A stretch of 21,987 nt of DNA from the IMG/VR virus record IMGVR_UViG_3300022665_001184, positions 1 to 21,987 of that record; one strand, 5' to 3'. A model generated the notes under the pieces. It made no database searches. It saw only the letters and a list, made by a program, of their open reading frames with translations, and had not been told where the DNA came from. A program made the position numbers and the translations under genes. This DNA comes from a virus. Below are positions 1,555 through 21,739 of this stretch, piece by piece (within the stretch, counting starts at the first letter, position 1; every line of letters begins with the position of its first letter).

Positions 1555-1997
1555 CAAAAGTAGAAGAAGAAGTGAGCATAGATATTAAAAAAGATAAAGA
1601 TAAAATTAGTGTTAAGATTAAAGATGATGAACAACAAATTATTCCAACACAAAGTTCGAGAAGGGTTAAAGATATAGACTTTCAACTAAACCTTCTCACA
1701 ACAACCACATCCTCTATCATACTCAAAAAGATTAATGGATTCCTTCAATCTTTTATTCTATCAGCAAGCAAGCAATGCAGCATAACCATCAGATTTTCTA
1801 CACTCCCAAATATAGTTTTATATGAAAACAGGCAATTTCATGGAACTCAATATCTTCCATTACGAGCCCAGGCAATAAAGCATGATGCCACATTTTTCAG
1901 TTTTGGAGTTGAAAAATGGGCTATTAATAATGAGTTAGAGATTATTGTAGACGGATCTATTGGAACAGTGGTTAATGGAACAGTGAGGTATGTATAA
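1551..1997 (+). CDS. Unknown protein with lysine/acidic N-terminus and beta-rich body
   Basis: 148 residues. The first ~38 are highly charged (VEEEVSIDIKKDKDKISVKI) and probably flexible or a short strand repeat. The rest alternates hydrophobic and polar residues as in beta-sandwich proteins (QLNLLTTTTSSIILKKINGF, and ELEIIVDGSIGTVVNGTVRY at the end). No cysteine cluster, signal peptide or membrane segment is seen. It starts inside the stop codon of the preceding gene, and its own TAA shares a base with the next ATG, so it belongs to a tightly coupled set with its neighbours. Such small beta proteins next to fibre genes can be tail or fibre attachment parts, but that is inference; the family is not recognised. 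Confidence 0.6.
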   Translation: MTKVEEEVSIDIKKDKDKISVKIKDDEQQIIPTQSSRRVKDIDFQLNLLTTTTSSIILKKINGFLQSFILSASKQCSITIRFSTLPNIVLYENRQFHGTQYLPLRAQAIKHDATFFSFGVEKWAINNELEIIVDGSIGTVVNGTVRYV

Positions 1998-2290
1998 TGG
2001 GTGAGATAATAATTGATGGGACAGGAAATTCGTATCCTTTAAAAGTTAATGCTGATGGCAGCATCAACACCAATTCTGCAATGGCTCGAATACATATAGG
2101 TAGTGGAACTGCCACATACCGTGCATCTGCAGAGCCAGGCGCAAATACCGCTAGCGGTGTATGGCAGATGTCTCGAACAAATAGAGAAAGTTTTCAGGGA
2201 ATAGCTAAAGCAGCTGTTACAACATGGGCTTCTGGCACTGGATCATTTGACAAGATTGTTGATGCTTTATTCACATCACCTTATTTATAA
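1997..2290 (+). CDS. Unknown small structural-type protein (97 aa)
   Basis: 97 residues, rich in Gly, Ala, Ser and Thr. It begins MGEIIIDGTGNSYPLKVNADG, a short beta-hairpin-like segment of a kind seen at the start of many virion proteins, then has a polar middle (ARIHIGSGTATYRASAEPG) and a helical-looking end (FDKIVDALFTSPYL). No signal peptide. It is linked by one-base overlaps (TAATG) to both the gene before it and the giant fibre-like gene after it, which suggests that the three are made together. It could be an adaptor for the fibre; I cannot name a family. Confidence 0.6.
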   Translation: MGEIIIDGTGNSYPLKVNADGSINTNSAMARIHIGSGTATYRASAEPGANTASGVWQMSRTNRESFQGIAKAAVTTWASGTGSFDKIVDALFTSPYL

Positions 2291-5200
2291 TGAAAAAAAA
2301 AAATATAATAATTTCAATAATTATATTAGTTTTGATATTATCAATAGCGTATGCACAAGTAGAATTTACGGTGTCTGATCGTTTAGTGCTTGAAGTGTTT
2401 AATCCATTCTCATTCCAAGACGATCTTATCAGATCAGCAAATTTTTCTGGAGAGAACATCACTGCTGACAATTTTATTGGTAATGGTAGTCCGCTTACTG
2501 GAATATCCGGATTTGTCAATAGCACTGCTTGGAACAGGACTGGATCAAATGTCATTCTCGCTAACCAAAATGATAATGTGGGAATAGGTACTGCATCCCC
2601 CACGGCGCCATTAGACGTGAATGGTGATATGGTATTGTCTGGTGGCAGCCAAAATTATAATTTCACTAATCGCCTTAACGCTTTGGTTATACAAGGTCAA
2701 TCGTTAAACACAGAGGCTTTGGTGGAATTATTTACAGGTTCTGGTGATGGTACTGATGAATTAGAGTTACGAGTTTACGCTGTTGGAAAATCAGATAACA
2801 TCAACGATAGTGAGTTCTTTCAGTTTGGATATGCTCCTATTCCTAAGACATTTGATATTGAGACAAAGGCTCTTGGTACAGGTAAAGCTCGTGACATTCA
2901 AATAATAGATAATGGCACTACTTGGATGAGATTTCTTGCTGGTGCTGGGGTAAGCATTTCTCGCACGTTAAATGTGACTAATGTTAACATAAGCAGCGAT
3001 CTTAATGTGATTGGAAATGTTAATATAACATCAGATTTAATCAGTCCAACTATCTATGATGTTTCTTCTCAAGGATTGGTTTTAGCAATGAATTTCAATA
3101 ATGGAAGTATTACAGGTAGTACTGTTTTAGATAGCTCTGGGGAGAATAATCATGGAACTAATAACGGAGCAACACACAATGCTACAGACGGGTTTGATAA
3201 TTTATTGAGTGGTGCTTTTGATTTTGATGGAGTGGATGATTATATAGAAATACTTGATAGTGGTAGTTTGGATATTACGGATGCGATAACTATAGTTGCA
3301 TGGATTAATGCTGATACATTTGGTTCGTTTGAACGTATAGTAGATAAGAAGGTTAATGAATGGACTTTTGTTTTAACAGACACAAGCCCTTTTACAGGTT
3401 TAGAATTTTGGATTAACGGTGTTGTTCGAGCAACTACTTCAACTGGTGAACTAACAGCAGACACATGGCATTTTGTTGTAGCCACTTATGATAAAGATTT
3501 GGGAGGAACAGAAGAGGTTAAAATATATATTGATGGTGTTAGTAAAGCTACAGGGGATTTTTCTACTGCTATAGGTACTAACGCTGATTCTGTAGATATT
3601 GGAAGAGAAACTACAGGTGAAGCAGGTAAGTATTTCGACGGAACAATAGACGAAGTATCTGTATGGAATAGGGCATTATCATCAGATGAAGTTAAAAGGC
3701 TTTATTTACAGAGAGTCGAGTTTTATAATTCTTATGTTTCTCAAAGAGACATTTTTGTTAACGCCTCTGGAAGTGTTGGAATAGGAACATCAAGTCCATC
3801 AGCAAAGCTCCATATAGATTCTTCAACAACCAATGAAGTGGCAAGATTCGTCTCAACAGATGCATTAGCACATTTGAGAGTAGAAGATAATTCTGGTCAT
3901 GTATTATACAGTAGTTCTGGGGATGATTCAAGAATATATACTGGTGATGATGATAACACTCAAAAATTAACAATAAAAGCAACTTCTGGGAATGTTGGAA
4001 TAGGAACGACAACACCAAACTATCTTCTTGAGATTGCAGATACTTCAGGAGAAGGTCTATCACTAAATGTTTCTGAAGTGCTATTTGTGAATGGGAGTAG
4101 TAACAGTGTCGGAATAGGAACGGCTAGTCCAATAGGAAGATTTACGATCAAACAAGGTTCAGATAATTTTCTTGAGGGGTTAACAATAGTTGATTCAGGA
4201 AGCACAGACAGATGGGATTTGGCTCTTGCAGGTAATGATTTGTTCTTTGGATTTAATAGTGCTACAAAAGTTTTCTTTGGAGATGATGGAAAGGTAGGTA
4301 TAGGAACTACAGTGCCAGAGGCTACTTTGGATGTGGAATCATCAGGGACAAACAGTCAAAGTATTATCAGAGGAAGATCCGATAACGGTGTTAGGTATTT
4401 ACTTGCTACGGACTTGTTAGATGATGGTTACATGTTCTTATATGATTCTGGCGAGATAGCTCAGACGGCTTTCAGAACTAATAGTAATCCTTCTTACATA
4501 GCAGGTGGTGGTAGTTTTGGAATAGGAACAAGCACGCCAGCTTATAAATTACAAATCCAAAACTCATCAGAAGCACTGAATGTTTCAAACTTTTTATTCG
4601 TGAATGGAAGTGGAGTAGGCATAGGCACTGCACGTCCTCAAGTAGAACTTCATGTTATAGGAGATGTTAACATTACTGGAACAGATAATAACATGCAACT
4701 TGGTTGTGGTAATATTACTGGAGAGGATACTGAGCTTTGTACTCTTTCACAACAATTTGGTGATGCTACTGCTAATATCACTACTTTGAATTTGACGAGT
4801 CAGGGTCAGTTTGATGCTAATGCTGTTTATATTGGTTTGGCAACTGCTAACATTTCTGCTAATGCTATTGTAGTAGGCGATGCAACTTCTAACATATCTA
4901 ATAGAATGAATGTGAGCGGTGGCAATTTTAATGGTGCTGTTAAAATAGATGGTTCTGCTGATGTGGAACAATTTATAGTGCAGGGTCATTCTACTCAAAG
5001 TGCAAACTTGTTTGTTGCTGAAGATTCAGCAGGGACAAATATGCTTTCAGTTAATAATGCAGGAAACACTTTTATTAGAGGAACATTGGATATAAGAGGT
5101 AGTCTTTCAGATGGTGCAGGGAATGTTATAATAGCAGATAGTTTAGATATAACTGGAACAAACTCGGACTTAACACTAAATCAGGATGGAACAGGAGCAA

Positions 5201-6882
5201 GAAGCAATAACCTAATACTAATAGATGATACCAACACGTGGTGGACAAGAATAAGCGGAAACCAATACCATATTAGAGATAATACGGCAGGGACAGAGCC
5301 TTTCAGGATTGATGAAGGAGCATCAACAGGAACATTATCATTACAAGCAGACGGTGATGTGACTATGACACAAGGGAATGTTGGCATAGGCACTTCAAGT
5401 CCAGGTACGCAATTAGAATTGGAATCGAATAATCCACAAATTCTTTTAGATGATAATACTGCTGATAATATTTATATTGGTAATGTTAATGCAGATTTTG
5501 AAATTCGTGATACTGGAAACTCCAATGTTTTGTTCGTTATTGAACAAGCAGGAGACGTGGGGATAGGCACAACAGATCCCATTCAGTTACTTCATATCGA
5601 GGATGCTGCTGGATCAGATACAGAGTTATTAATTCGAGCAGGCACAGCGGTAGCTTCTGTTGGAAATGATGCTATCTTAACTTTAAATGCCATCGCTAAT
5701 AATGCGGCACAAGACCAAGTACGATTCAGAGCTATTCACACAGGTGGTGAGAATGTTAATTTTGTTATTGAGCAAGATACAAGTGCGGGTGCTTTGACAG
5801 AGGTGTTAAGAATAGATACAGATGGGGATGTTGGCATAGGCACTTCAAGTCCATCTGAAGTATTAGAAGTTGAAAAGAATCAAAATGATTTCACGGTATT
5901 GAGAGTTGAAAACACCAATACTGGCACAGGTGGAAGAACTGGAGTGACAATTGTAAGTGGTAGTGTTAGTACTTTTATTGAATCTGTCCAAAGTAGCAAT
6001 ACAGTTGTAAGTGGTTGGGCTGATAGTACTGTACTTACTTCAGACGCAGATATGTATATTGGTCCTTTTGGTGGAACAGATAAAATATTTTTTCAAACGG
6101 GTAGTGTAGCTGGAACAAGAATGACAATTTTGGATACGGGAAATGTCGGAATTGGTACTTTAAGCCCTCCTTACGAGTTGACTGTTGGTGATGGTCAAAC
6201 TTTTCTTCAGGACGGCACTGGTGCTTTTCCTTTAATAATACACAGGAACGCTAACAGTGCCAATTTTGGTGTTGTTATACAATTTAGTTTAAATAATAGT
6301 AATAATGCGCTTCAAGAATACGCTGAGTTACTAGGTATTCTAAGACTAAGTACTGCAGGAAGTGAGGATGGTGATTTAGTTATAAGAGGTATGAACGATG
6401 GCACAATGAGATCCATTGCTAACTTCACTGGTGATGATGAAAGTTTATACATGAGCGGTAATATCATTCTTGGTGGTGGTCGCATAGACATTTGTGACGG
6501 AATTTGCGATCCCGATGCCGCAACTGGTGATGGTGACTTGTACGTTGAGGGTAATTTGGAAGTGGATGGTTCAATATGCATAGAAGGAAGCACAGGAGGA
6601 CCTTGCACTGAAAGCTTAGGAAATCTTCAAGTAGAAGATGGCAGTATTTGTGTAGGAAACGCTGGTTGTGATCCTGGAACTGACGGGACGATACTCATAG
6701 AAGGAGATTTCACTAGCTCTGACACTGGAGACTTAGGATGGAGTGTGCAAACAGGAGCGAACACTGCTTGCACTGCCACTTGCACTAATGCTTGTGTGTT
6801 CGGTTTTGATGATGGAGTGGATACTGTTGTTAGTTGTTCATCAACAGCAGCTGACACTTGCGTTTGCGCAGGAGCGAGTTAA
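2290..6882 (+). CDS. Giant secreted fibre/adhesin with LamG domain and GIGT repeats
   Basis: 1530 residues. A hydrophobic signal peptide (about 1-23, ending IAYAQ) is followed by many N-x-S/T sequons. Residues ~258-475 form a LamG/concanavalin-like jelly roll (ending in FDGTIDEVSVWNRALSSDEV), a fold that typically binds sugars. Eleven copies of the motif (V/F)GIGT..P....L.V lie near residues 97, 496, 569, 607, 669, 744, 776, 1032, 1090, 1180 and 1286. This repeat is common in phage tail fibres and large surface adhesins and usually marks trimeric beta-rich shafts. The C-terminus has no S74-type chaperone motif that I can see; instead it is Cys-rich and ends TACTATCTNACVFGFDDG, then SSTAADTCVCAG. 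A signal peptide is odd for a virion part and points to export to the host surface. It could be a receptor-binding fibre assembled outside the cell, or a virus-encoded host surface adhesin. Confidence 0.85.
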   Translation: MKKKNIIISIIILVLILSIAYAQVEFTVSDRLVLEVFNPFSFQDDLIRSANFSGENITADNFIGNGSPLTGISGFVNSTAWNRTGSNVILANQNDNVGIGTASPTAPLDVNGDMVLSGGSQNYNFTNRLNALVIQGQSLNTEALVELFTGSGDGTDELELRVYAVGKSDNINDSEFFQFGYAPIPKTFDIETKALGTGKARDIQIIDNGTTWMRFLAGAGVSISRTLNVTNVNISSDLNVIGNVNITSDLISPTIYDVSSQGLVLAMNFNNGSITGSTVLDSSGENNHGTNNGATHNATDGFDNLLSGAFDFDGVDDYIEILDSGSLDITDAITIVAWINADTFGSFERIVDKKVNEWTFVLTDTSPFTGLEFWINGVVRATTSTGELTADTWHFVVATYDKDLGGTEEVKIYIDGVSKATGDFSTAIGTNADSVDIGRETTGEAGKYFDGTIDEVSVWNRALSSDEVKRLYLQRVEFYNSYVSQRDIFVNASGSVGIGTSSPSAKLHIDSSTTNEVARFVSTDALAHLRVEDNSGHVLYSSSGDDSRIYTGDDDNTQKLTIKATSGNVGIGTTTPNYLLEIADTSGEGLSLNVSEVLFVNGSSNSVGIGTASPIGRFTIKQGSDNFLEGLTIVDSGSTDRWDLALAGNDLFFGFNSATKVFFGDDGKVGIGTTVPEATLDVESSGTNSQSIIRGRSDNGVRYLLATDLLDDGYMFLYDSGEIAQTAFRTNSNPSYIAGGGSFGIGTSTPAYKLQIQNSSEALNVSNFLFVNGSGVGIGTARPQVELHVIGDVNITGTDNNMQLGCGNITGEDTELCTLSQQFGDATANITTLNLTSQGQFDANAVYIGLATANISANAIVVGDATSNISNRMNVSGGNFNGAVKIDGSADVEQFIVQGHSTQSANLFVAEDSAGTNMLSVNNAGNTFIRGTLDIRGSLSDGAGNVIIADSLDITGTNSDLTLNQDGTGARSNNLILIDDTNTWWTRISGNQYHIRDNTAGTEPFRIDEGASTGTLSLQADGDVTMTQGNVGIGTSSPGTQLELESNNPQILLDDNTADNIYIGNVNADFEIRDTGNSNVLFVIEQAGDVGIGTTDPIQLLHIEDAAGSDTELLIRAGTAVASVGNDAILTLNAIANNAAQDQVRFRAIHTGGENVNFVIEQDTSAGALTEVLRIDTDGDVGIGTSSPSEVLEVEKNQNDFTVLRVENTNTGTGGRTGVTIVSGSVSTFIESVQSSNTVVSGWADSTVLTSDADMYIGPFGGTDKIFFQTGSVAGTRMTILDTGNVGIGTLSPPYELTVGDGQTFLQDGTGAFPLIIHRNANSANFGVVIQFSLNNSNNALQEYAELLGILRLSTAGSEDGDLVIRGMNDGTMRSIANFTGDDESLYMSGNIILGGGRIDICDGICDPDAATGDGDLYVEGNLEVDGSICIEGSTGGPCTESLGNLQVEDGSICVGNAGCDPGTDGTILIEGDFTSSDTGDLGWSVQTGANTACTATCTNACVFGFDDGVDTVVSCSSTAADTCVCAGAS
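5378..5403. repeat. 26-bp exact repeat inside fibre gene, copy 1
   Basis: A 26-base stretch coding for the GIGT motif is identical to 5828-5853, 450 bases downstream. Other GIGT motif copies in the gene differ at silent positions, so this pair is the most recent duplication or conversion within the fibre shaft. Confidence 0.8.
5828..5853. repeat. 26-bp exact repeat inside fibre gene, copy 2
   Basis: Second copy of the 26-base GIGT-coding stretch at 5378-5403, in the same reading phase (offset 450 bases = 150 codons). Recombination between the two copies would remove or add 150 residues without shifting frame. Confidence 0.8.
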
Positions 6883-6884
6883 AA

Positions 6885-7499
6885 ATGAAAAAAATAATAA
6901 TAGGGATTATGATGTTATTATTAATTATCCAAGTATCGGCACAAATAAATATACAAACAGCAACAGTACAAACTCAGGAAGTGATAAATACAAAAACTGA
7001 TGGAATAATAAATATGAGTGAGAGTCCTAGAATAACATTTTATTCAATAGAATTAAAAAAGAATATTACTCGTAATTTTGAGGGAACAGATAGGTATAAT
7101 CAATGCAAAGCAAATAGTGGATTGTTATACGTAGGTGATGTGTTATCTTTTAATTGCACAGATTATGTTGATTATGATGATTATCTTGAGAAGAAAATGG
7201 AAGAGAATGTTGAAAGCCTAAAAACAAGCCCACCATCTGATGTAAGCGGTTTGCAATTCCAAGTTGAGAGTTTAGAGTTATTGATACAACAATTATTATC
7301 TAGAATTGAAGTATTGGAAGCCATGCTTAACATCACAGAAGAACCGGCACAAACACCATTGTATTCTTGTCCTGGAAGGGCTGATGAAGAATGTCCTGGA
7401 GGATTGAGCAAACTTAACGCTGAAGGTTTACAAACAAGATGTTATAATCCTTTCCTGATCGGCTGGAAGAATTGTAAAACAGGGTGGACGCTGAAATGA
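6885..7499 (+). CDS. Secreted coiled-coil protein with Cys-rich C-terminus
   Basis: 204 residues from the ATG at 6885. Upstream in-frame codons exist from 6858, but they lie inside the fibre gene, and the ATG at 6885 gives a clean signal peptide (MKKIIIGIMMLLLIIQVSAQ). The mature part has N-x-S/T sequons, a central coiled coil of about 28 residues (VSGLQFQVESLELLIQQLLS onward), and a C-terminal domain with four cysteines and the motif GLSKLNAEGLQTRCY followed by WKNCKTGW. It starts two bases after the fibre stop, so the two are probably co-translated and co-exported; it may trimerise and cap or anchor the fibre (inference). The stop overlaps the next ATG (ATGA). The family is not recognised beyond its secreted, disulphide-rich character. 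Confidence 0.75.
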   Translation: MKKIIIGIMMLLLIIQVSAQINIQTATVQTQEVINTKTDGIINMSESPRITFYSIELKKNITRNFEGTDRYNQCKANSGLLYVGDVLSFNCTDYVDYDDYLEKKMEENVESLKTSPPSDVSGLQFQVESLELLIQQLLSRIEVLEAMLNITEEPAQTPLYSCPGRADEECPGGLSKLNAEGLQTRCYNPFLIGWKNCKTGWTLK

Positions 7500-7759
7500 A
7501 AGATTATGCAAAACTAGCTAAGACAAATAACGGCTTGAAAGGAGATGAAACGACAAGACAATTATGTTTCATACTATTAGGAAAGATTGATGATAATGCT
7601 AAGAGAGATGAGGATTATCATCATGAATTGAGAAAAGAGCTTATTAAAGCAAATGAGGGTGTTGTGAAGAATAAAACTGGTATTAAATATTTAAGATGGA
7701 TGTTTGGGATCTCGATAACACTTCTTCTTGCTATAATAGGATATTTTTTGAATATGTAA
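7496..7759 (+). CDS. Small tail-anchored membrane protein, XhlA/holin-like
   Basis: 87 residues from the ATG at 7496, which overlaps the preceding stop by four bases; an in-frame GTG at 7484 is a less likely start. The first ~60 residues are charged and helical (DDNAKRDEDYHHELRKELIK), followed by one C-terminal membrane helix (WMFGISITLLLAIIGYFLNM). This layout, a soluble coiled coil followed by a short basic loop and a terminal membrane helix, resembles the XhlA class of holin-associated proteins. It could also be a membrane anchor for the fibre complex encoded just before it. No lysis enzyme is seen in the window, so a lysis role is unproven. Its stop codon touches the 52-bp promoter repeat. 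Confidence 0.6.
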   Translation: MKDYAKLAKTNNGLKGDETTRQLCFILLGKIDDNAKRDEDYHHELRKELIKANEGVVKNKTGIKYLRWMFGISITLLLAIIGYFLNM

Positions 7760-7809
7760 TAATTATATAATTAAAATATATGTATTTAAATACATTAAAA
7801 ATATATTTT
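7758..7809. repeat. 52-bp AT-rich palindromic repeat, copy 1
   Basis: These 52 bases are identical to 12686-12737. The repeat begins within the stop codon of the upstream gene and contains two perfect palindromes, AATTATATAATT and ATGTATTTAAATACAT, plus inverted arms AAAATATAT and ATATATTTT. The central palindrome contains the TATA box of the protease operon. It is likely a promoter with an operator-like dyad, and may also help end the upstream transcript. Confidence 0.85.
7785..7792 (+). promoter_or_regulatory. Archaeal-type TATA box of the head operon (leaderless)
   Basis: TTTAAATA lies at the centre of a 16-bp perfect palindrome. Its midpoint is about 27-28 nt before the ATG at 7816, the usual archaeal distance from TATA box to transcription start. 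Transcription should therefore start at or next to the start codon, giving a leaderless mRNA. This agrees with the lack of a Shine-Dalgarno site before 7816. Confidence 0.65.
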
Positions 7810-7815
7810 ATCAAA

Positions 7816-8943
7816 ATGCCTTTACCTAAACCTAGTCCAACTGAGAAAAGACAAGCTTTTATTTCTAGATGTATGGGTAGTAGTCAAACTAAAGCAGATT
7901 TTCCTGATCATGAACAGAGAGCAGCAGTATGTTTTAGTCAATGGAAAAGATCAAAGGAAGAATTTGTGGAGAGAGATTGGCATAAATTAAGTTTTGTAGT
8001 ACCTATTACTGAAAGCATTACCACAGAGGATGATTTTTTAATTAAAGGAATAGCAATTACTACTACAACAACTCGCAATAGAACAAAATTTATTGCTAAA
8101 GAATTGCGTAAATCAGTACAATCATTGAATGATAAGCCAATTCTTAAAGATCATAACAACTCAGTTGATAGCATTGTTGGACGTACAACAATGAATAATA
8201 AATTTAGTGAAACTCATAAAAGAATAGATTTTGAGGCTAGAATTGTCGATGAAGATATGCAAAAGAAGATATCACAGGGATTAATTAAAAATGTGAGTGT
8301 AGGAGCAGTTGTTGAAGATCTTATAGAGCATACAGATGAAGAAACTGATGAAAAATCAATGATAGCAACAGGGATCGATTTTGTTGAATTATCATTAGTC
8401 GCAGTTCCCGCAGATCCAGATGCGGGTTTTGCAAAAGCTGTTATGGAAAGTTATAGTTTGAAAGAGGAAGCAAATTTTTTTAATAAACAGGAGGTTATCA
8501 AAATGTCTGAAGAAAAGAAAGTTGAAGCTCCAGTCAAAGAAGAAGTGAAGCAAGAACCTGTAAAGGTTGAGATAGATACAAGTAAGCTTCATGAAGTGAT
8601 TGGAGAAGCTGTGAAAGCAGGGATTACAGAGGGAATGAAGGCAATAAAAGAGCAGGAAGAAGAAGAACCTGCAAAAGAGGAAGAAACGCCTAAGGAAGAG
8701 GAGCCTGCAAAAGAGGAAGAGCCAAAAAAAGAGGAAGAGCCAAAGAAGGAAGAAGAGCCTGCAACTGATGAAACTAAGGGAGAAGTTGCAACAGATGAAC
8801 CAAAAGGGGAAGGATCTGCTTTTGATAATTATTTAATTGAAAGATCTGAATCTGGGAAGGGTTATTCAATATCAATGAAAGAATATCCAACGGGAATTAG
8901 CAGATTAAATCCAAATGCTGATTATCCTTGGGAGGTAAAATAA
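7816..8943 (+). CDS. Prohead protease (HK97/S78-like) fused to scaffold domain
   Basis: 375 residues. The ATG at 7816 is chosen over an in-frame ATG at 7780 because the latter lies within the TATA-box repeat. Residues ~50-215 match the HK97-type prohead protease pattern: FLIKGIAI, the likely catalytic histidine at about 113 in LKDHNNSVDS, the likely catalytic serine at about 161 in KNVSVGAV, then FVELSLVAVPADPDAG. The protein carries an extra N-terminal ~45 residues with two cysteines (SRCMGSSQTKADFPDHEQRA). From residue ~230 on it is a Glu/Lys/Pro-rich low-complexity tail (repeats like EEEPAKEEEP) with a structured end, typical of scaffold or delta domains. The protease cleaves scaffold and capsid precursors during head maturation. 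A strong internal start at 8503 would yield the scaffold alone. It is the first gene of the head operon. Confidence 0.87.
   Translation: MPLPKPSPTEKRQAFISRCMGSSQTKADFPDHEQRAAVCFSQWKRSKEEFVERDWHKLSFVVPITESITTEDDFLIKGIAITTTTTRNRTKFIAKELRKSVQSLNDKPILKDHNNSVDSIVGRTTMNNKFSETHKRIDFEARIVDEDMQKKISQGLIKNVSVGAVVEDLIEHTDEETDEKSMIATGIDFVELSLVAVPADPDAGFAKAVMESYSLKEEANFFNKQEVIKMSEEKKVEAPVKEEVKQEPVKVEIDTSKLHEVIGEAVKAGITEGMKAIKEQEEEEPAKEEETPKEEEPAKEEEPKKEEEPKKEEEPATDETKGEVATDEPKGEGSAFDNYLIERSESGKGYSISMKEYPTGISRLNPNADYPWEVK
8503..8943 (+). CDS. Nested scaffold protein from in-frame internal start
   Basis: Within the protease gene, an AGGAGGT site at 8489-8495 is followed after 7 bases by ATG at 8503 in the same frame. 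The product would be 146 residues, starting MSEEKKVEAPVKEEVKQEPV and consisting only of the acidic low-complexity region and its conserved-looking end. This is the arrangement of lambda C/Nu3, where a scaffold is made from an internal start inside the protease gene. Because the full-length gene is probably leaderless while this start has an almost perfect Shine-Dalgarno site, the scaffold could be made in large excess. The architecture is visible; the separate product is inference. Confidence 0.65.
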   Translation: MSEEKKVEAPVKEEVKQEPVKVEIDTSKLHEVIGEAVKAGITEGMKAIKEQEEEEPAKEEETPKEEEPAKEEEPKKEEEPKKEEEPATDETKGEVATDEPKGEGSAFDNYLIERSESGKGYSISMKEYPTGISRLNPNADYPWEVK

Positions 8944-8944
8944 A

Positions 8945-9409
8945 ATGGCAGCAGCAGGATTAGGAAACCCATTAGGATACATCCCTGTCGGCGATACAGG
9001 AAATCCAATGATTATTTCAGGAAGAGCACGAGCTGAAGCAATTAGTGGTGGTGTATTCGTGTTTGCATCAGGAGCAGATGGTGTTGTTAGCTCAGGATTA
9101 TCAAGCTTTGTAAATGCAGATTTACTATTTGCACGTGATGCAAGTGGATCAAGATTTAATGGAATTTGTGCATATAGTATAGGAAGTAATGTGCCTATAG
9201 CAGTTATTAGAAATGCTGATGTATTACTTGCATGTAATGGAACTGTATTAGCAGGAGCATCAGTAGGATGTGACGGAAATAATGCAGTTGCACAGATTGG
9301 ATCAACAACAGAAGTATTAAATGATGGAGCATCAAAAATGATTGGACGAGCATTAACTGGAGCAGCATCAGGAACAACAAATTATGCTCTCATTCATGTA
9401 ATGGGATAG
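8945..9409 (+). CDS. Putative capsid decoration (cement) protein, DUF2190-like
   Basis: 154 residues, rich in Gly, Ala and Ser, starting two bases after the protease-scaffold stop and ending 12 bases before the major capsid gene. The opening (GNPLGYIPVGDTGNPMIISG) and the beta-rich alternation through IGSNVPIAVIRNADVLLACN resemble DUF2190-type decoration proteins, which form trimers on the capsid surface and stabilise it. The two cysteines at the centre (LLACNGTVLAGASVGC) could pair. The position between protease and capsid genes is where lambda D-like proteins are encoded. The assignment rests on composition and position as much as on sequence. Confidence 0.65.
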   Translation: MAAAGLGNPLGYIPVGDTGNPMIISGRARAEAISGGVFVFASGADGVVSSGLSSFVNADLLFARDASGSRFNGICAYSIGSNVPIAVIRNADVLLACNGTVLAGASVGCDGNNAVAQIGSTTEVLNDGASKMIGRALTGAASGTTNYALIHVMG

Positions 9410-9421
9410 AGGTGAACAAAA

Positions 9422-10264
9422 ATGCAACACATTAAAGAATTGTTAACAACTGGAACAGGAACAGAAGGTCAGCTTCTTATACCTAGGAAGATTTTTGATA
9501 CTCTAGTTCAGGACCAGGAGAAAGCATTAATTCCAAGAAGTGAAGCTGGTTGGTTCTTTAATCCAGCGATGGTTCCAGGATCATCAGTTGACTTCGACAC
9601 GGAAGATGAAGACAAGATGGACGTGCGAGAAATCGCAGAGGGAGGAGAAATATTCCTTGATCAGGACGAGTATTCAAGCACTAATATCAAACCAACGAAA
9701 TATGGTGTTGCTATTAGAATAACAAGAGAACTTATAGAAGATGCAAAATGGAATCTTCTACAAAGGAATATTGAGAAGGCTGGAAGAAGATTGGCTGAAA
9801 ATGAAAACTCATTGATTGTTGGTCAACTAGACAATGCTGCAAATACAGTAACTGGTGGATCTGCAATTACTATTCCAAATATTACAAGAGCAATGCAGCA
9901 TTTGGAAGATAGTGATTATGAACCAACATCATTCCTTATAGGAATGGAAGTGTTAAACGATCTGAGAAACATTGATACTTTTGTAGAAGCTAACAAACTT
10001 GGGAGTACAGAAATGCTTCGAAGTGGATTTGTTGGTACAATATATGGTATGAATGTTATGAAAGTTTCAACAAATGCAGGGATGACAACGACAAGTTCAT
10101 ATATATTTGATAGACGAAATGCATATGCAATTGTTGAAAAACGAACAATTACCGTTGAAAATTTTGACTTGCCAACATTTGACATGAGTGGTGCAGTCAT
10201 TACACAACGACTTGCAGTTGCGTCTATTCGAACAAATGCAATTGCCAAAATTACGACAACATAA
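9422..10264 (+). CDS. Major capsid protein, HK97 fold
   Basis: 280 residues with AGAGGTGA at 9408-9415 as ribosome binding site, 6 bases before the ATG. Features of HK97-fold capsid proteins visible: an N-terminal arm with LIPRKIFDTLVQDQEK, an E-loop-like acidic segment (VDFDTEDEDKMDVREIAEGG), the spine-helix region with RRLAENENSLIVGQLDNAAN, the P-domain segment LIGMEVLNDLRNIDTF, and a C-terminal beta segment with GTIYGMNVMKVS then ITQRLAVASIRTNAIA. It builds the icosahedral head; its short length (no large delta domain) fits a separate scaffold supplied by the upstream gene. No N-terminal signal or membrane segment. Confidence 0.88.
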   Translation: MQHIKELLTTGTGTEGQLLIPRKIFDTLVQDQEKALIPRSEAGWFFNPAMVPGSSVDFDTEDEDKMDVREIAEGGEIFLDQDEYSSTNIKPTKYGVAIRITRELIEDAKWNLLQRNIEKAGRRLAENENSLIVGQLDNAANTVTGGSAITIPNITRAMQHLEDSDYEPTSFLIGMEVLNDLRNIDTFVEANKLGSTEMLRSGFVGTIYGMNVMKVSTNAGMTTTSSYIFDRRNAYAIVEKRTITVENFDLPTFDMSGAVITQRLAVASIRTNAIAKITTT

Positions 10265-10277
10265 GGAGGTGACTTAA

Positions 10278-10733
10278 ATGGGTAATGCATTACAAGATGG
10301 ATTAAGTTTACCTGATCTATTTGCAGATACAGCACTTCAAACTGCTGAGATTGGTAGTGGTGCTGTCATGACTGTTAATATCAGTGGTGGACAGGTCACT
10401 ACAGCTAAGATTGCAGCATTAGCAGTAACAGCTGCTGAAATTGGTGCTGCTGCAGTAACAGCAGCTAAGCAAAATTGTATAGGTCTTGGGAGTCCAGTAC
10501 TTGTTGGTAATCATTTACAAATTGGAAGTGGTGTAACAGGTGCAGGAAGTGATGTATGGCATCTTTTTCCTACAGCATTTGCAGCAGCGCCAATTGTGAC
10601 TGTATCACAGGCTGAGACTAAAGAAGCTATTCAAGCACCAATAGGAAGTATGGTAGCAGGAAGTTTCTATGTTCAAACTGTGGGTGCAAGTCAAACATTT
10701 ACTTTTATAGCTGTTGGATCAGGCAACCTATAA
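10278..10733 (+). CDS. Putative head fibre / capsid-attached protein
   Basis: 151 residues with a near-perfect ribosome binding site, GGAGGTGA at 10265-10272, five bases before the ATG, suggesting high expression like the capsid protein. Residues ~20-65 contain short repeats of the form TAEIGSGAV, TAKIAALAV and TAAEIGAAAV, a pattern of phage head and tail fibre shafts (collagen-free triple beta-helix type). The C-terminal ~75 residues look like a compact beta domain (IVTVSQAETKE, then SFYVQTVGASQTFTFIAVGS), as in surface knobs. A capsid-attached fibre is the most likely reading; a neck or tail fibre is possible. Confidence 0.6.
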   Translation: MGNALQDGLSLPDLFADTALQTAEIGSGAVMTVNISGGQVTTAKIAALAVTAAEIGAAAVTAAKQNCIGLGSPVLVGNHLQIGSGVTGAGSDVWHLFPTAFAAAPIVTVSQAETKEAIQAPIGSMVAGSFYVQTVGASQTFTFIAVGSGNL

Positions 10734-10734
10734 A

Positions 10735-10749
10735 TTTTTTATTTTTTTT
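10735..10749 (+). terminator. T-tract, probable archaeal terminator after capsid genes
   Basis: Directly after the stop of the head-fibre-like gene the plus strand has TTTTTT, one A, then eight T. Archaeal RNA polymerase stops at such T-runs without a strong hairpin. It would cut off part of the transcripts after the most abundant head proteins. No convincing hairpin precedes it. Confidence 0.5.
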
Positions 10750-10795
10750 ACGCCTATATGGCATGACAAGTAGAGTCGATAAGGAGGTAATTTAA

Positions 10796-11176
10796 ATGGT
10801 TAGAGGAGAACGTATAAAATCAGTTATATTTCCACAACAAACTCTTTCTGCTGCTAGCAGTGGATTGGCATTATTCACTGATGAAGTGATAAATGGTGAA
10901 ATTCTTCAAGTTGAACATGGTTTTAATCAGAATGGTAGTTTAGCATTAGAAGCATCTGGAATTGCCAATACTGAAATTTGGAGAGTGAATGCGTCAAGTG
11001 GTACTAATACGTCTGTTGCTTATCCAGGACATTTATTGGAAGATACAATAGGTAGTGCAATTGGATTTGGTGGGACAGTGGCTTTATTTGTTGTTCATGA
11101 TAAATTAAAATTAATAACTGGTAGTTTAATCAGTGGAACATCTGCTAATCTTGATGTGACAGTCAAGTATAGGTGA
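10796..11176 (+). CDS. Unknown beta-rich head-module protein
   Basis: 126 residues; GGAGGT at 10783-10788 lies seven bases before the ATG. The sequence alternates polar and hydrophobic residues (SVIFPQQTLSAASSGLALFT, ALFVVHDKLKLITGSLISGT) and ends TSANLDVTVKYR, as expected for a beta sandwich with no membrane segment. It is the first gene after the T-tract. It could be a second decoration protein or part of the neck; I do not recognise a family. Confidence 0.6.
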   Translation: MVRGERIKSVIFPQQTLSAASSGLALFTDEVINGEILQVEHGFNQNGSLALEASGIANTEIWRVNASSGTNTSVAYPGHLLEDTIGSAIGFGGTVALFVVHDKLKLITGSLISGTSANLDVTVKYR

Positions 11177-11180
11177 TCGA

Positions 11181-11561
11181 ATGGTCACATATAATTTAGG
11201 ATCTGTCGGATCTGTTGTATTAATATTAGTTCCCGAAACTCCAACAGCAATCAGCGGTACACCATTATTAGGTATTGCTGATCGTGAACGATTGTTTATG
11301 GAAGATTATACTGGACAATCGATTGGAAGCACAGGAATAGCTGAGAAGTTTCAACCAGCTCTTATCGATCTTACACAAGCAGAAGTATATGGAATATTAG
11401 AAGCTGAAAGTGCAGCCGATGATACATTAAGATTGGCAGATTTTAGTGTGAAATCTGCAAGATCATCTAAGAATTCGCAGTCAACTATATATCATGAAAT
11501 GGGAATTCAAAAACTTAATAATCTTGGAAGAAAAGTGAGGTTTTTTAAAGCAAATGGATAG
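11181..11561 (+). CDS. Unknown head-tail module protein
   Basis: 126 residues, starting four bases after the previous stop. The N-terminus is hydrophobic and beta-like (LGSVGSVVLILVPETPTAIS) but lacks the basic residues of a signal peptide. The rest is mixed, with a likely helix at DLTQAEVYGILEAESAADDT and a basic end (LNNLGRKVRFFKANG). Its position between capsid and connector genes suggests a connector or assembly role. The family is not recognised. Confidence 0.55.
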   Translation: MVTYNLGSVGSVVLILVPETPTAISGTPLLGIADRERLFMEDYTGQSIGSTGIAEKFQPALIDLTQAEVYGILEAESAADDTLRLADFSVKSARSSKNSQSTIYHEMGIQKLNNLGRKVRFFKANG

Positions 11562-11610
11562 TAATAAAAAACATAAAGGAAAAAAGAAATTAAGAAAGTA
11601 GGTGATACCA

Positions 11611-11898
11611 ATGTCAAAAGTACAATTAGCATATACTGGACTACATATGCCCAGAGAAATAGTAGAGGTTGATGAGTTTCTAGCACCAGCTCTTATTAAA
11701 AGAGGAGATTATAAAGCAGTTAATGTGGCTAAGGTGTTGAAGGAGAAAGAGGAAGTTGAAGAAGTTCCAAATGAGACATGGACAGAGAAAGAAATAAAGA
11801 AATGGATGAAAGAAAAGAATGTTCCAATAAAATATGATACTTCGAATGAAGAAAAAGCAGATAAATTAAAGGAGTTAAAAGATGCTGGATATTTATAA
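11611..11898 (+). CDS. Small protein with C-terminal HeH/LEM-like helical domain
   Basis: 95 residues. The ATG at 11611 is preferred to the in-frame GTG at 11602 because AGGTGAT at 11600-11606 sits four bases before it. The N-terminal half (LAYTGLHMPREIVEVDEFLA) is followed by a charged linker with KEKEEVEEVP. The C-terminal ~40 residues (WTEKEIKKWMKEKNVPIKYD through KADKLKELKDAGYL) fit the helix-extended-helix pattern of HeH/LEM/SAP-like domains, which occur at the ends of several phage head-tail proteins. A connector-associated role is likely by position. The stop shares one base with the next ATG. Confidence 0.65.
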   Translation: MSKVQLAYTGLHMPREIVEVDEFLAPALIKRGDYKAVNVAKVLKEKEEVEEVPNETWTEKEIKKWMKEKNVPIKYDTSNEEKADKLKELKDAGYL

Positions 11899-12317: not shown

Positions 12318-12318
12318 T

Positions 12319-12690
12319 GTGGCAAAAGATTTTTCAATTGAAATACGAGGAATACCTGAAGTTCAAGCTTTTTTAAAAAATTCTTCTAAACAAAAGCAAC
12401 GACGAGTTAATAAAACTATTCATAGGGAAGGATTTAGGGTAGAGGCTGAGGTTAAGCAAAGTATTGCTGGTCAAAGATCCGAGCCTAGAAGTGTTGATAC
12501 TGGAAGATTTTTAAATAGTGTGCAAACGGATAATAGTAAATATTTTCAGTCAAGAATTTTCTCAAATGTTCGTTACGCAATTCACTTAGAAAAGGGTACA
12601 AGTAGAATAAATCCCAGGCGACATTTTAAAAATAGTGCAAATAGGAAGAGGGTAGAGATCGTTAATAATATTTCAAGAGCGCTACAATAA
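12319..12690 (+). CDS. HK97 gp10-like neck/tail completion protein
   Basis: 123 residues from the GTG at 12319, which has AGGTGA at 12308-12313 five bases upstream; an in-frame GTG at 12310 has no such site and would overlap the previous gene. The family pattern is clear: a basic helical N-terminal part (NSSKQKQRRVNKTIHREGFR), the conserved VDTGRFLNSV block near residue 65, then YAIHLEKGTSRINPRRHF near the C-terminus. HK97 gp10-like proteins act at the head-tail interface or in tail completion. Its stop lies within the second 52-bp repeat, so the protease-to-gp10 unit is exactly bracketed by the two repeat copies. Confidence 0.8.
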   Translation: MAKDFSIEIRGIPEVQAFLKNSSKQKQRRVNKTIHREGFRVEAEVKQSIAGQRSEPRSVDTGRFLNSVQTDNSKYFQSRIFSNVRYAIHLEKGTSRINPRRHFKNSANRKRVEIVNNISRALQ

Positions 12691-12737
12691 TTATATAATT
12701 AAAATATATGTATTTAAATACATTAAAAATATATTTT
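12686..12737. repeat. 52-bp AT-rich palindromic repeat, copy 2
   Basis: All 52 bases match 7758-7809 (offset 4928). As in copy 1, the repeat begins at the end of the upstream gene, here two bases before its TAA. The two copies bracket the complete protease-to-gp10 gene set. Identity over an intergenic stretch while the flanks differ suggests recent duplication, or selection for the whole element as a regulatory site. Confidence 0.85.
12713..12720 (+). promoter_or_regulatory. TATA box in repeat copy 2, upstream of tail-terminator gene
   Basis: The same TTTAAATA in the same 16-bp palindrome as at 7785. Here the next start codon, 12787, is about 70 bases away, so transcription from this box would begin near 12743 and leave a leader of about 44 nt. 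The leader contains two similar blocks, CAAGCGAGA and CAAGCGAGG, and GAGG near 12777-12780 could serve as ribosome binding site. Confidence 0.55.
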
Positions 12738-12786
12738 TATTATTCTGCTATCAAGCGAGATAGTAAGAAGCCAAGCGAGGCATGAT

Positions 12787-13248: not shown

Positions 13249-13250
13249 AA

Positions 13251-13718
13251 ATGGCAAATAATTGTATATGTGGATGTGGAAAGATTACCAAATATGGACA
13301 ATACTCTAGAGGACATTCACCAAATAGTAGAAATGGATTTAATAAACATAATAATAGAAATTCAAAAAAAAGAATAGAAACATCAATAAAACGATATGGA
13401 AAAGTTAAAGGACGACCAAAAGGTATGAAACATACAGATGAAGCAAAAAAGCTTATGTCCAATAAAATAAAAGAATATTATAAACACAATAGACATCCTA
13501 ATTATCAACAAATAAAAATTCTATGTAAGTATTGTAAAAAAGAATTTGTGGGATATAAAACAAGGATTACATGTTCAAATTTATGTAATTCAAAACAAAA
13601 TTGGAGTGATAAAAGTTATATAGAAAAAAATAGAAAATCTCATTTAGGAATTATTCCTTGGAATAAAGGAATGAAAGGAATGGGAATACAAGTTAATTGG
13701 CGGTCCAAAAAATTCTAA
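13251..13718 (+). pseudogene. NUMOD3 homing-type endonuclease, N-terminal half, broken near 13705
   Basis: The frame begins at ATG 13251, two bases after the tail-terminator stop. It shows an N-terminal zinc-finger-like CICGCGKITKYGQYSRGH, a NUMOD3-type DNA-binding motif (GRPKGMKHTDEAKKLMSNKI), a second cysteine cluster (ILCKYCKKEFV then ITCSNLC), and a second NUMOD3-like motif LGIIPWNKGMKGMG. No HNH or GIY-YIG nuclease core is present. The last ~15 codons overlap, on the other strand, the end of the large glycoprotein gene, and the protein stops just after QVNWR, where related phage endonucleases continue into an HNH domain. A matching HNH C-terminal part lies at 21551-21739 on the minus strand. 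I infer that the gene is split by an inversion junction near 13700-13710. Confidence 0.7.
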
Positions 13719-16700
13719 ATGAGCAGCATCAAAATAACATTCACTACAAATTGATGTAAAATAGAAGTATGGCAATAAGAATCTATCACTGCATCCACTC
13801 AAATCAATAAATTGCCATATACTCCTACTATTATCCTTATCTGGATTTATTGTAATATTAGACAATATTCTTTCATATGTTTCATTATAAACAAATCCAT
13901 CAACTTTAGCTGTTGTATTGCTAAAAGTCACATTAAGACAGGAGTCTATCGTCTCATTAGACTTAACATATATATCTAGTGGCTCATCATATCCTAAATT
14001 ACTAATATTAAATATTGGCGTAGAGTTTGTTTGCCTGACAGGAGTTATATTTTTGCTATTATTAGTTCGTGCAAGAACATCATACACTTGTAGTATGGGT
14101 AGACTAATATTATATGGCGAAAATTTCACAAGTATCTTATGTATTGCTGAAGTGCTAGCATCATGAGCTGTTGCAGTGTAATTCAAACTTCCCAAAAAAT
14201 CAAATTGAATATCTGACACATTAAAAGTGTCTCCATCAAATGTATAGTTTATTTCACATTGGGTACATGTTTCGAATCGTGATTTGTTTAACACTACAGG
14301 ATTAACACTTGCATTATTAACAAAATTATTGATTTGCACTTGTCCAGCATCTCCCACAGTTATTTTGATTGGAACAAGACCAATTATGTCAGGTTCAGAA
14401 ATATTAACCTTCTTTGGAGAATTTGAACCATCTAAAACATCAGGGAAATTCCAGTCAATAATCCCATCACTATTATAATCAATCGAAATATTTGATGCGC
14501 TTGCATTAACTATATTAATACTCACACTTCGAACAATTGGGCTGCTTGTGTTTACTGTTGAGTTAAGAAAAGCTTTCCAACATATATTGCTTCCAACAGT
14601 ATCAAAAATATGAAGAATACCTGGATCTACCTTTTCAAAAGTTCGATTAGTAATATTACACACACTACTCATATAAAATGTAGCATCAGTGTCAGGAGGC
14701 TCATGCCAACTAGCATCAAGAGTTGCTCTAATAATATTATCTGGTATATTAATCATTGTTCCTGTAATATTTCCTTCAGGATCATATCTACCATTTGTGC
14801 TTCTGTTCAACATTGCACCTCCCCACTTGATTTCCTCAAGGATTAAGGTAGCGTTTGACGGAAGCCCGGTGCCACCACCATCACCACAAGTGTGGGTTGC
14901 ATCGAGAAAGAACCTGAATCGTAAGCGTTGAGTAAAATCAAGACTCGATAAATCTTTCACACCTTCTGTCGTGCCATTAATAAAAACTTCCCATGATGTA
15001 CTATCATTTCTAATTAAGGTGAGGTTATGACCAGCACGTTCACTTGTGAATCCTGCTGTATTTTTATGATCCTTAAAATAATTCTTCAACAAAACAGTGC
15101 TCGTCCCGTCGTATACTTGAATGTTAATATTACTGAACCTCGCTTTTCCTGAGACTGAACAAGAACCTGCATCCTGCTGCCAATGATACAATAATTGGAT
15201 AATGCTCGTGTTATGAAAGTTTGCAATTGCTGAAGATTCAAGAAACTCAAATGATTGAGGACCAACGTTACTATGATGAGCAGATGCTACAAGATGAAGA
15301 TTACCAGACTTATAAGACAAGTCACCAAATCCTGGCGAAGAACCAGCTATTTTATTCATACTCCACAATGTATTATTATTATCGAAATCGTCAAAAACTC
15401 CAGGAGCTGTAACATTATCAGTAAATGTCCAATTATGAGTGAATGTATTGTTGAATTTTTCATTATGATCAAGTTCATTTCCAGCATCTACATCAAATCC
15501 ACTTACATCAAATGTTAAATTTTGTGTTGAACCTGTAGTGTTAGTGAATATAATTTGTGATCCAGCCTTTGCGTAAGTTAAATTAACTGTAAATTTATAA
15601 ATAGAATTATGAATGAAATCATTTTGAATAACATGAAAATCACTGAAATTGCCTCTAAAATATATAGTTTCATTTCCATAACTCACATTTAAATTCCTCA
15701 CTGTTCCATTAGCTGTCATATTAAATTGCACTGCCTCCATTTCAGTGCGATTATCCATAACTACAGTTATTAGGGTTGTATTTCGTAAATTTTCTGTAGC
15801 TCCAACTGTAGTGTTTGCTCGTCTCAATGTTGTAATGTTAAAATCAAATATTGTGGATCCCTCATTACACGATACATTAATTCCAAGTCCAGGAGCATCA
15901 ATATCTATGCAAACCTCTCCTTGACTAACTGCTTGAAGCCGTGCAATGCTATTCAATTCGTATTTTCTTGAATCGTTTAAAAGATTTAAAAATAAAGTTA
16001 GACCAGTCTCGTTATAATTCACATTCAAACATCCACTCATACTAACATTATTTTCAGTAGCATCTGAATTTATGCAAGATGCATAGATACATTGTGTTGT
16101 ATCAACAGTGAGGTTGGGGAGTAAAGTAAAAGAATGGCTTGTAACCTCAGTTGTAGATAATTTATATTCCGAATTATTAGCTACCATTGTTGTGTAGTTT
16201 TCATCACTTCTTGAAGTGCTGCAATTTGCATTTTCATTAGTCACAAATGTTCCTGTTAGTAAATTTGAAGATACATTTATTGTATCTCCTACATTCCATA
16301 CTGACGTATTTCCAATAGTATTATTAGATGTTACATTCCAAGTTGAATTAGTAGGTGGTGTAAGATCAGGTAGATCTACTGGTCCTCCTGTAATGTTGAT
16401 AGTAAGGTCATCCCAGAAGTTAGGACCTCCTGCAACATTGGTGTCAGTGTCAAGCCTGATTGTATTAATACACTTGTCAATAGGGCGTGAGTCGTTAAAA
16501 ATTAAGCTATCATTAATATATCCTGTAATATTTGTACCATTAGTTCCTCGTACAATAAAATGCATCTTAGTCCAACCACTGTCTGACCTAGTGTTATTAG
16601 TAATATTAAAAGATCCTACGGTTGCAAATGTATAATTCTTTTCTCCAGCTTGACTAGCAGTATTATTATCAATTCCCAATCTAGCTATTGAAACAGTATC

Positions 16701-17054
16701 ATGGTAAAGAGCAATCGTAGCTCTTGACCCAGCAGTGTTATTAGAAGAATATATTTCAATAGTGAGATTAAAACAGTCTCCAAGTAGATAGTCAACTCTT
16801 CCACCACCAGCACTCCCTCCTTTTATTCCAAGAGTTCCTGATTGCGCTTGTATATTAGAGTAATTGAAGAGGTTGTTCTGATTTGTAGTATTCCATCCAC
16901 CTACAAGGAGATGTTCATTATTGCTTCCAGAGGTTCCGTCAATAGTCGTGTCAGCTGAATCAGTAATTGTTCTTAAAACCTCTACATCTTCTAACTGGTC
17001 AGCATAGACAAATAGTATGAATAATAAAAATACTAGTAAAATTATTTTTTTCAT
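13644..17054 (-). CDS. Large secreted glycoprotein (LamG-like N-domain), tail-tip or surface protein
   Basis: 1136 residues from the ATG at 17054, which shares a base with the upstream stop (TGATG); the longer start at 17075 lies inside the upstream gene and would spoil the signal peptide MKKIILLVFLLFILFVYADQ. Residues ~20-220 resemble a concanavalin/LamG-type domain (YLLGDCFNLTIEIYSSNNTA and the end NFWDDLTINITGG). The rest is a chain of beta-rich segments with several dozen N-x-S/T sequons and scattered Cys pairs. No C-terminal membrane anchor or GIGT repeat is seen. Position after tape measure and distal-tail genes suggests the receptor-binding protein of the tail tip, yet the signal peptide implies export. 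The last ~20 residues (after FFGPP) are antisense to the broken endonuclease gene, so the native C-terminus is probably lost. Confidence 0.75.
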   Translation of the reverse strand: MKKIILLVFLLFILFVYADQLEDVEVLRTITDSADTTIDGTSGSNNEHLLVGGWNTTNQNNLFNYSNIQAQSGTLGIKGGSAGGGRVDYLLGDCFNLTIEIYSSNNTAGSRATIALYHDTVSIARLGIDNNTASQAGEKNYTFATVGSFNITNNTRSDSGWTKMHFIVRGTNGTNITGYINDSLIFNDSRPIDKCINTIRLDTDTNVAGGPNFWDDLTINITGGPVDLPDLTPPTNSTWNVTSNNTIGNTSVWNVGDTINVSSNLLTGTFVTNENANCSTSRSDENYTTMVANNSEYKLSTTEVTSHSFTLLPNLTVDTTQCIYASCINSDATENNVSMSGCLNVNYNETGLTLFLNLLNDSRKYELNSIARLQAVSQGEVCIDIDAPGLGINVSCNEGSTIFDFNITTLRRANTTVGATENLRNTTLITVVMDNRTEMEAVQFNMTANGTVRNLNVSYGNETIYFRGNFSDFHVIQNDFIHNSIYKFTVNLTYAKAGSQIIFTNTTGSTQNLTFDVSGFDVDAGNELDHNEKFNNTFTHNWTFTDNVTAPGVFDDFDNNNTLWSMNKIAGSSPGFGDLSYKSGNLHLVASAHHSNVGPQSFEFLESSAIANFHNTSIIQLLYHWQQDAGSCSVSGKARFSNINIQVYDGTSTVLLKNYFKDHKNTAGFTSERAGHNLTLIRNDSTSWEVFINGTTEGVKDLSSLDFTQRLRFRFFLDATHTCGDGGGTGLPSNATLILEEIKWGGAMLNRSTNGRYDPEGNITGTMINIPDNIIRATLDASWHEPPDTDATFYMSSVCNITNRTFEKVDPGILHIFDTVGSNICWKAFLNSTVNTSSPIVRSVSINIVNASASNISIDYNSDGIIDWNFPDVLDGSNSPKKVNISEPDIIGLVPIKITVGDAGQVQINNFVNNASVNPVVLNKSRFETCTQCEINYTFDGDTFNVSDIQFDFLGSLNYTATAHDASTSAIHKILVKFSPYNISLPILQVYDVLARTNNSKNITPVRQTNSTPIFNISNLGYDEPLDIYVKSNETIDSCLNVTFSNTTAKVDGFVYNETYERILSNITINPDKDNSRSIWQFIDLSGCSDRFLLPYFYFTSICSECYFDAAHLEFFGPPINLYSHSFHSFIPRNNS

Positions 17055-17869
17055 CAAATTCCAACCTCTGTACACACTCCTCTTTCAACCTCATGAACTC
17101 TACACTCCCCATATTCTTCATAATTCCTATCTCCTATAGGAATTGACCATTTATACAATTTTCCTCCAACAATGTTAGAGTTCTCATAAATAATATTATT
17201 CACTTCAATTCCTATCCTTTTTCCATTATAATATTGAATATCAAAATAATCAACAAATCTTCTAGTAATATTTTTTGCCTCAACACAAGTGTTATTAGCA
17301 TAACAAAACCTTTCTACTGTTCTTACAACACTCTCCTTATAAATAGGAACTCTTCTACTTCTATTCTGATAAACTATTTTGTAGCCAAAAAATACAGGAT
17401 CAAACTCTTCTCCAGTTATCTTACCACCCCATTTAATAGTGTCAGTAGGATTATGTTTAAAAATAACAATCTTATATTGATTCTTCTTGCCCTTAATAAA
17501 CTTTTCAATATAACTATATCTGGAGGTTAGTGGAGTGGTCCAATCAAATTCTCTCCATCCAACTCCACAAGGATACTTTTCTCTATCTAATCTTTTTTTA
17601 GAAGAATATCTACCATCTTTTTTACAATAATAATACTCTTTAACATCTGGTTCAAAAGACAACTTCACCGCATTTTTATTATAAATATACCAAGTAGAAA
17701 TATTTTTAAGAGTTATATTGAATGGACCCTCACAAATATCGTTATAATCTCCTAAACAAAATTTATTTCCTGGAAGTTCAACATCAAAGTGTTGAGATAG
17801 AACAAACCATGTGATAAGTCCAATAATACTAACTGTTAGTCCAAGTCCTATATATTTTGTTCTAGACAT
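17054..17869 (-). CDS. Membrane-anchored extracellular protein, function unknown
   Basis: 271 residues. One N-terminal membrane helix (about residues 6-26, IGLGLTVSIIGLITWFVLSQ) is followed by an extracellular-type domain with sequons (FNITLKNIS, NNT, KNIT) and eight cysteines, starting KFCLGDYNDICEGPFNI. The C-terminal region (NGKRIGIEVNNIIYENSNIV) looks beta-rich. It overlaps by one base with both neighbours, so it is coupled to the distal-tail-like gene and to the large glycoprotein. I do not recognise a viral family; proteins with this look occur in DPANN-type archaeal genomes (recollection, not a search). It may anchor or present the glycoprotein at the cell surface. Confidence 0.7.
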   Translation of the reverse strand: MSRTKYIGLGLTVSIIGLITWFVLSQHFDVELPGNKFCLGDYNDICEGPFNITLKNISTWYIYNKNAVKLSFEPDVKEYYYCKKDGRYSSKKRLDREKYPCGVGWREFDWTTPLTSRYSYIEKFIKGKKNQYKIVIFKHNPTDTIKWGGKITGEEFDPVFFGYKIVYQNRSRRVPIYKESVVRTVERFCYANNTCVEAKNITRRFVDYFDIQYYNGKRIGIEVNNIIYENSNIVGGKLYKWSIPIGDRNYEEYGECRVHEVERGVCTEVGI

Positions 17870-21550: not shown

Positions 21551-21739
21551 TTAAAACACCTCCATATGTTTTTCTTTTCTTATTTCTTGTTCAGCTTCAA
21601 CATGACACTTTCTACAAAGAGTCATTAAATTATTTGCTGAATTATCTTTACTAATTAAAAAAGGAATTTTATGATGTACATCAACTCTTTTGCCTTCAAT
21701 AAAACAACTTTGACATGTAAGATCATCTCTTAAACGAAC
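21551..21739 (-). pseudogene. HNH endonuclease, C-terminal part, N-terminus replaced at a junction
   Basis: The native coding part starts at about VRLRDDLTCQSC and shows the HNH core with zinc cysteines: TCQSC, VDVHHKIPF (HNH histidines), NSANNLMTLC and RKCH. The fold cuts DNA with a divalent metal ion. The frame continues upstream for a few codons (to 21757), but those codons come from the inverted copy of the chaperone gene that begins at 21740, so the true N-terminus is missing. The N-terminal DNA-binding half expected for such an enzyme is found at 13251 to ~13705 on the other strand. Its stop is one base before the tail-tube ATG and its 3' end carries the tube gene's ribosome binding site. 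Confidence 0.78.

Follow-up and report, generated by a model that had tools for sequence, protein, structure and literature searches.

A probable late operon of a presumed archaeal tailed virus encodes an exported protein of tail-fibre ancestry

Tail fibres of classical caudoviruses carry no signal peptide and are assembled in the cytoplasm. A fibre architecture of phage type can also be exported and act as an adhesin, since this is what the MAT (mosaic adhesive trimer) fibres of Bdellovibrio bacteriovorus do, which are phage-fibre-like, bear a signal peptide followed by a conserved beta N-domain of ~130 aa, and have been imaged both on the surface of the predator and inside its prey (PMC10769870). 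Head-tailed viruses of methanogens and ANME encode SH-like sheath proteins with signal peptides (159-288 aa, amyloid-like), which were proposed to aid egress (PMC11576556). A phage-encoded surface adhesin of the PblB type is likewise reported to mediate adhesion (PMC4508584). Little is known of how viruses recognise and leave DPANN archaea, which often live attached to other cells, and the gene cassette described here raises the question of whether a secreted fibre could serve a tailed virus.

The window, that is the whole stretch of DNA analysed (21,987 bases), is a complete IMG/VR virus record and itself a tailed-virus fragment with genes for MuF, prohead protease, HK97-type capsid, neck, tape measure and tail protein. 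Relatives of its capsid gene were found in 22, later 80, IMG/VR contigs, and the comparison group comprised ~100 (101) viral contigs. Since the sole related contig in a host genome bin is L024, from a Pacearchaeota bin and with a capsid relative of 60% identity, we infer Pacearchaeota or nearby DPANN archaea as the host. In L024 the portal/MuF-G105-G148 genes (3525-7046) are inverted with respect to the protease. Elsewhere in the group, many glycosyltransferase- or sugar-like genes and preQ0-synthesis-like genes were read from the sequence (G194; L135 7978-19999, L136 8546-12556).

Table 1. Features of the window that belong to the cassette, the promoter-like element and the tail module
Feature	Coordinates	Strand	Description
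G97	1997..2290	+	Small signal-less protein; in many contigs its gene directly precedes that of an exported fibre or another gene, at times fibre-like
Exported fibre, 1530 aa	2290..6882	+	Signal peptide 2290-2355, N-module, LamG, GIGT stalk, Cys-bearing C-terminus
P204	6885..7499	+	Exported coiled-coil protein, C-terminal Cys4 domain 7350-7496
Tail-anchored coiled-coil protein, 87 aa	7496..7759	+	Anchor at C-terminus
Late-promoter-like element	7758..7809	+	Palindrome AATTATATAATT and TATA-like box upstream of protease; ends the cassette transcription unit
Second copy of the element	12686..12737	+	Upstream of 153-aa gene and tail module; 52-nt perfect repeat of 7758-7809
Second exported giant, 1143 aa (about 1140)	13644..17075	-	72 N-glycosylation sequons against 25.5 expected
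A7-type protein	17054..17869	-	N-terminal membrane anchor and conserved Cys-bearing ectodomain; tail module, behind tape measure gene

The sequence-only reading had described a 1530-residue signal-peptide fibre with LamG and GIGT repeats, a secreted coiled-coil Cys protein and a tail-anchored membrane protein, translationally linked. All three genes are present (Table 1), with the start of P204 better set at ATG 6885, giving 204 aa, and that of the tail-anchored gene moved from GTG 7484 (91 aa) to ATG 7496 (87 aa). The linkage was borne out too: the G97 stop and fibre start overlap in TAATG at 2288-2292, fibre and P204 are 2 nt apart, and P204 overlaps the 87-aa gene in ATGA at 7496-7499. The same reading placed the cassette between a head gene and the protease gene; the position is right, but the cassette closes the portal/MuF operon and a promoter-like element stands before the protease operon. 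The palindrome of this element, AATTATATAATT, occurs 63 times in 36 of the 101 contigs against 1.5 copies expected, nearly always preceding portal, protease or 153-aa genes, and the element stands at the start of the operons for portal, protease and tail. No promoter of its own was seen before the window cassette. Judged by its position, the cassette probably closes the portal operon, is driven by an apparent common late promoter and forms part of the late gene set. G97, the Cys4 domain, the second exported pair (13644-17869), the promoter repeat and the rearrangement of the contig come in addition to what the sequence-only reading saw.

The fibre begins with MKKKNIIISIIILVLILSIAYA followed by Q, a cleavable-looking signal peptide ending in A-Y-A. 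Its N-module (to about residue 75) consists of this signal peptide and then YNPFTGkLDYv-NFTGxN (core NPFTGkLDY-NFTGxN); it is kept in the window, L014, L021 and L081, is weaker in L075 and L117, and was recognised by eye in L129, L131 and L158. For this module a match in the middle of Vibrio phage hub proteins (E 0.1) was set aside. A single LamG domain (PF13385, E 3.4e-27) covers residues 313-469 (3226-3696), and 11 G[IV]GT copies form a stalk at about 3748-6279 that contains the DNA repeat families D1/D2/D5. The protein matches a PHROG tail fibre (E 5.7e-23) and aligns with the signal-less fibre of L024; its stalk matches the tip structure of the Bdellovibrio MAT fibre Bd2133 (8ond, E 6.9e-10) and its LamG region an S-layer-type protein (4qvs, E 5e-5). 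In phage records we found just GIGT/LamG matches to marine phages, all below 60% identity, and peptide-pattern searches of viral contigs with P204 and the whole fibre gave no match.

With classical GIGT or S74 caudovirus fibres (PHROG 9942/18345), the window fibre shares stalk repeats and, in relatives, gene position, but it departs from them in bearing a signal peptide, so that it has the GIGT homology of a tail fibre and lacks the signal-less N-terminus of cytoplasmic synthesis. It resembles MAT in combining a signal peptide with a GIGT-type stalk like that of phage tail fibres and with adhesive parts that vary; whereas MAT is cell-encoded and used by a predator on prey, the window fibre belongs to an archaeal virus late operon, with LamG and with Cys4 and A7 partners. 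We conclude that the cassette fibre appears to stem from a tail-fibre gene converted to export and to act outside the cell.

P204 starts with MKKIIIGIMMLLLIIQVSA followed by Q. In its AlphaFold model a signal helix and a helical stretch (97-147) lead to a compact C-terminal Cys4 domain (pLDDT 92-94), for which no significant fold match was found despite the confident prediction. This unnamed four-cysteine domain, with the pattern YYC..R-C-LS-TRCY-C-GW, also ends a 185-aa protein of L051, follows a membrane anchor as the only domain in L051, L081, L088, L106, L107, L120, L126 and L132, and forms part of longer ectodomains in L127, L129 and L131 (the last with LamG-like sequence). The full Cys4 alignment varied too much to serve in scanning contigs, for which a closer subset worked. 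In L112 and L117 Cys4 is fused to the fibre C-terminus (in L112 the fibre is truncated on the 5' side, leaving its signal peptide out of view). These fusions, together with gene order, link fibre and P204 and are the best evidence that the two may cooperate. P204 had no match in phage records, and its single host match (a 543-aa ORF, 21% identity, without N-terminal signal) was discarded as spurious. A7 proteins, which combine a membrane anchor with a Cys-bearing ectodomain, occur at 31 loci of viruses, with tail or head genes as their usual neighbours; the AlphaFold model of the A7 N-part is beta-rich and matched no known fold significantly. Tail-anchored coiled-coil proteins like that of the cassette adjoin many late genes and are only loosely conserved.

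Stretches of the fibre N-part match 32 of 193 host-phylum genomes, large host ORFs included; one of these, a Pacearchaeota chromosomal protein of 5212 aa with a signal peptide and 23 GIGT motifs (L133 242-15880), is a cellular counterpart of the stalk. Cys4, by comparison, appears in one of the 193 (on a 3.3-kb contig of similar arrangement) and A7 in none, in a search run without a positive control. For this reason the stalk seems to be shared with the hosts while the partner domains look viral, and the gene set is not confined to host chromosomes.

Comparable exported sets precede the protease in two other viruses, as the sequence-only reading had proposed to look for: L081 has the order MuF-G105-G148-G97-exported fibre-exported 425 aa-Cys4-183-protease, and L091 has GIGT fibre (1536+ aa)-exported 187 aa-87-tail-anchored 103 aa-protease. 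Exported proteins were called by a test of N-terminal hydrophobicity, not by SignalP, and this test flags 11 of 854 core virion genes, 4 of the 11 being tape measures. By the same test, signal peptides are conserved among the fibre homologues. Large exported ORFs were flagged in 19 of the 101 contigs, window included, one of which, a 526-aa ORF in L060, was dropped as a false positive. The flagged ORFs, which often bear LamG, are found at three positions: ahead of the protease gene, in the interval from capsid to neck genes, and following the tape measure gene. The MuF-protease slot of the 44 contigs that span it holds a large exported ORF in 3 (window, L081, L117), a large signal-less one in 11 (L060 counted) and small ORFs only in 30; exported genes also lie in this slot in contigs that start inside it (L051, L064, L069, L075, L088, L091). 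Fibre and P204 are, on these comparisons, almost certainly exported, viral and part of a recurrent set.

Exported ORFs of at least 200 aa contain 748 N-glycosylation sequons against 361 expected from composition (2.07x), and other ORFs 1327 against 1290 (1.03x), a difference with a Mann-Whitney p of 8e-11 in which related sequences are treated as independent. The window fibre is not itself enriched (28 against 23.9 expected). A second exported pair in the window's tail module spans 13644-17869 and includes the sequon-rich giant of Table 1. An exported viral protein of 2472 aa in L142 (G197; 6907-14325), whose gene sits between a gene in the tape-measure position and a distal tail gene, has 152 sequons.

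Sequence and comparison together establish the export signals, the conserved cassette, the fibre ancestry, the gene fusions and a probable late operon; from these we infer trimer, tethering, adhesion and place of action. Our best explanation, to which we give about an even chance, is that a tail-fibre gene, in a version made for export and expressed late, supplies the infected cell with an adhesin of viral origin on its outer face. The fibre would be made with a Sec signal peptide, leave the infected archaeal cell and fold outside into a long GIGT stalk with a lectin-like LamG domain, being trimeric by analogy. Exported partners that the virus also encodes would hold it near the envelope, in the window P204 through its Cys4 domain and in relatives membrane-anchored Cys4 or A7 proteins, and the fibre would bind glycans or surface proteins on the host or its partner cell. 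Possible effects are an envelope altered for release, new particles kept off debris, or cells held together for spread. The conserved, virus-enriched cassette of a proposed exported adhesin furthermore offers annotation targets and domain models in G97, the exported fibre, Cys4 and A7.

Known precedent makes us prefer a surface adhesin to a fibre loaded onto virions, which the shared slot and G97 nevertheless leave as an unlikely but serious candidate. In that case the fibre would be exported, mature between membrane and S-layer and dock on leaving virions as a receptor-binding protein, with G97 as virion-bound adaptor. G97 (75-119 aa, without signal peptide) lies directly before the exported fibre in the window and 10 distinct viral contigs (L014, L021, L075, L081, L117, L129, L131, L158, L171, L183), and elsewhere precedes signal-less proteins. 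A virion role is argued because relatives carry such signal-less, partly fibre-like proteins in the MuF-protease slot or after G97, as in L188, where GIGT repeats follow G97, and L078 has a slot protein with an S74-chaperone-looking C-terminus. Two cassette-bearing contigs (62.9 and 56.4 kb), judged by eye from ORF tables, show no signal-less unassigned ORF of at least 250 aa in their late region, and the late operon fits as well. Against it, we know of no tailed virus that loads exported fibres, and L078 has a signal-less fibre in addition to an exported A7 giant, which argues that exported giants are not simply replacements. The general proposal that tailed archaeal viruses export receptor-binding fibres, fold them outside the membrane (disulphide-bonded, N-glycosylated) and load them at exit via G97 as a cytosolic adaptor is, in our judgement, slightly more doubtful still; if true, it would be an extracytoplasmic assembly route for receptor-binding fibres undescribed in tailed viruses. 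Of the undescribed surface system put forward by the sequence-only reading, export, viral origin and recurrence are supported; surface action and virion decoration are both compatible with the sequence.

It is rather improbable that the exported proteins act in egress by integrating into and weakening the host surface layer. The SH-like proteins are a precedent, being likewise exported, host-envelope-like and encoded by archaeal tailed viruses (PMC11576556), and the stretches common to the fibre and large host ORFs, the late promoter and the tail-anchored neighbours would agree with such a role. The window fibre, however, is a long lectin fibre with virus-specific anchors that has the signal peptide of the SH-like proteins but neither their length nor their domains; its layout is that of an adhesin, no enzyme or sheath fold was found among its domain-family and solved-structure matches, and the tail-anchored protein has no lysis or holin family match, with weak unrelated Pfam/PHROG matches and none in NCBIfam. 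Cargo for lysogenic conversion, excluding other viruses and expressed apart from the late genes, would account for the several slots and their variable content, but is made very improbable by the stop-start coupling to late genes, the shared late-promoter element, the missing promoter of its own and the pairing with G97.

We found no earlier description of such a cassette in the records; the phrase "signal peptide" is absent from a paper on tailed archaeal viruses (PMC8651126), and the words signal, adhesin and LamG from one on archaeal proviruses that includes Woesearchaeales (PMC11705971).

An artefactual join of a viral contig to host surface genes, which the inverted contig ends, the split HNH gene and the presence of GIGT sequence in hosts might suggest, is hardly credible and already contradicted, as equivalents lie on many independent contigs and the region from 1.2 to 13.2 kb, in which the cassette falls, agrees with relatives and has no junction, L081 reproducing the order around the cassette. 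Outside that region, the portal fragment at 1-327 is inverted with respect to MuF, both being one ORF in L081, and the tail module (13.65-21.75 kb) is inverted compared with relatives. An HNH-type endonuclease gene is apparently split between 13245-13718 (+) and 21551-21757 (-), with the tail-module inversion between its parts. Inversions of this kind commonly arise when amplification or assembly yields a chimera, which is what the contig ends suggest, though a true inversion is conceivable. The last 250 bases (21730-21987) are tape-measure/chaperone copies, 139 nt inverted and 115 nt direct, both perfect.
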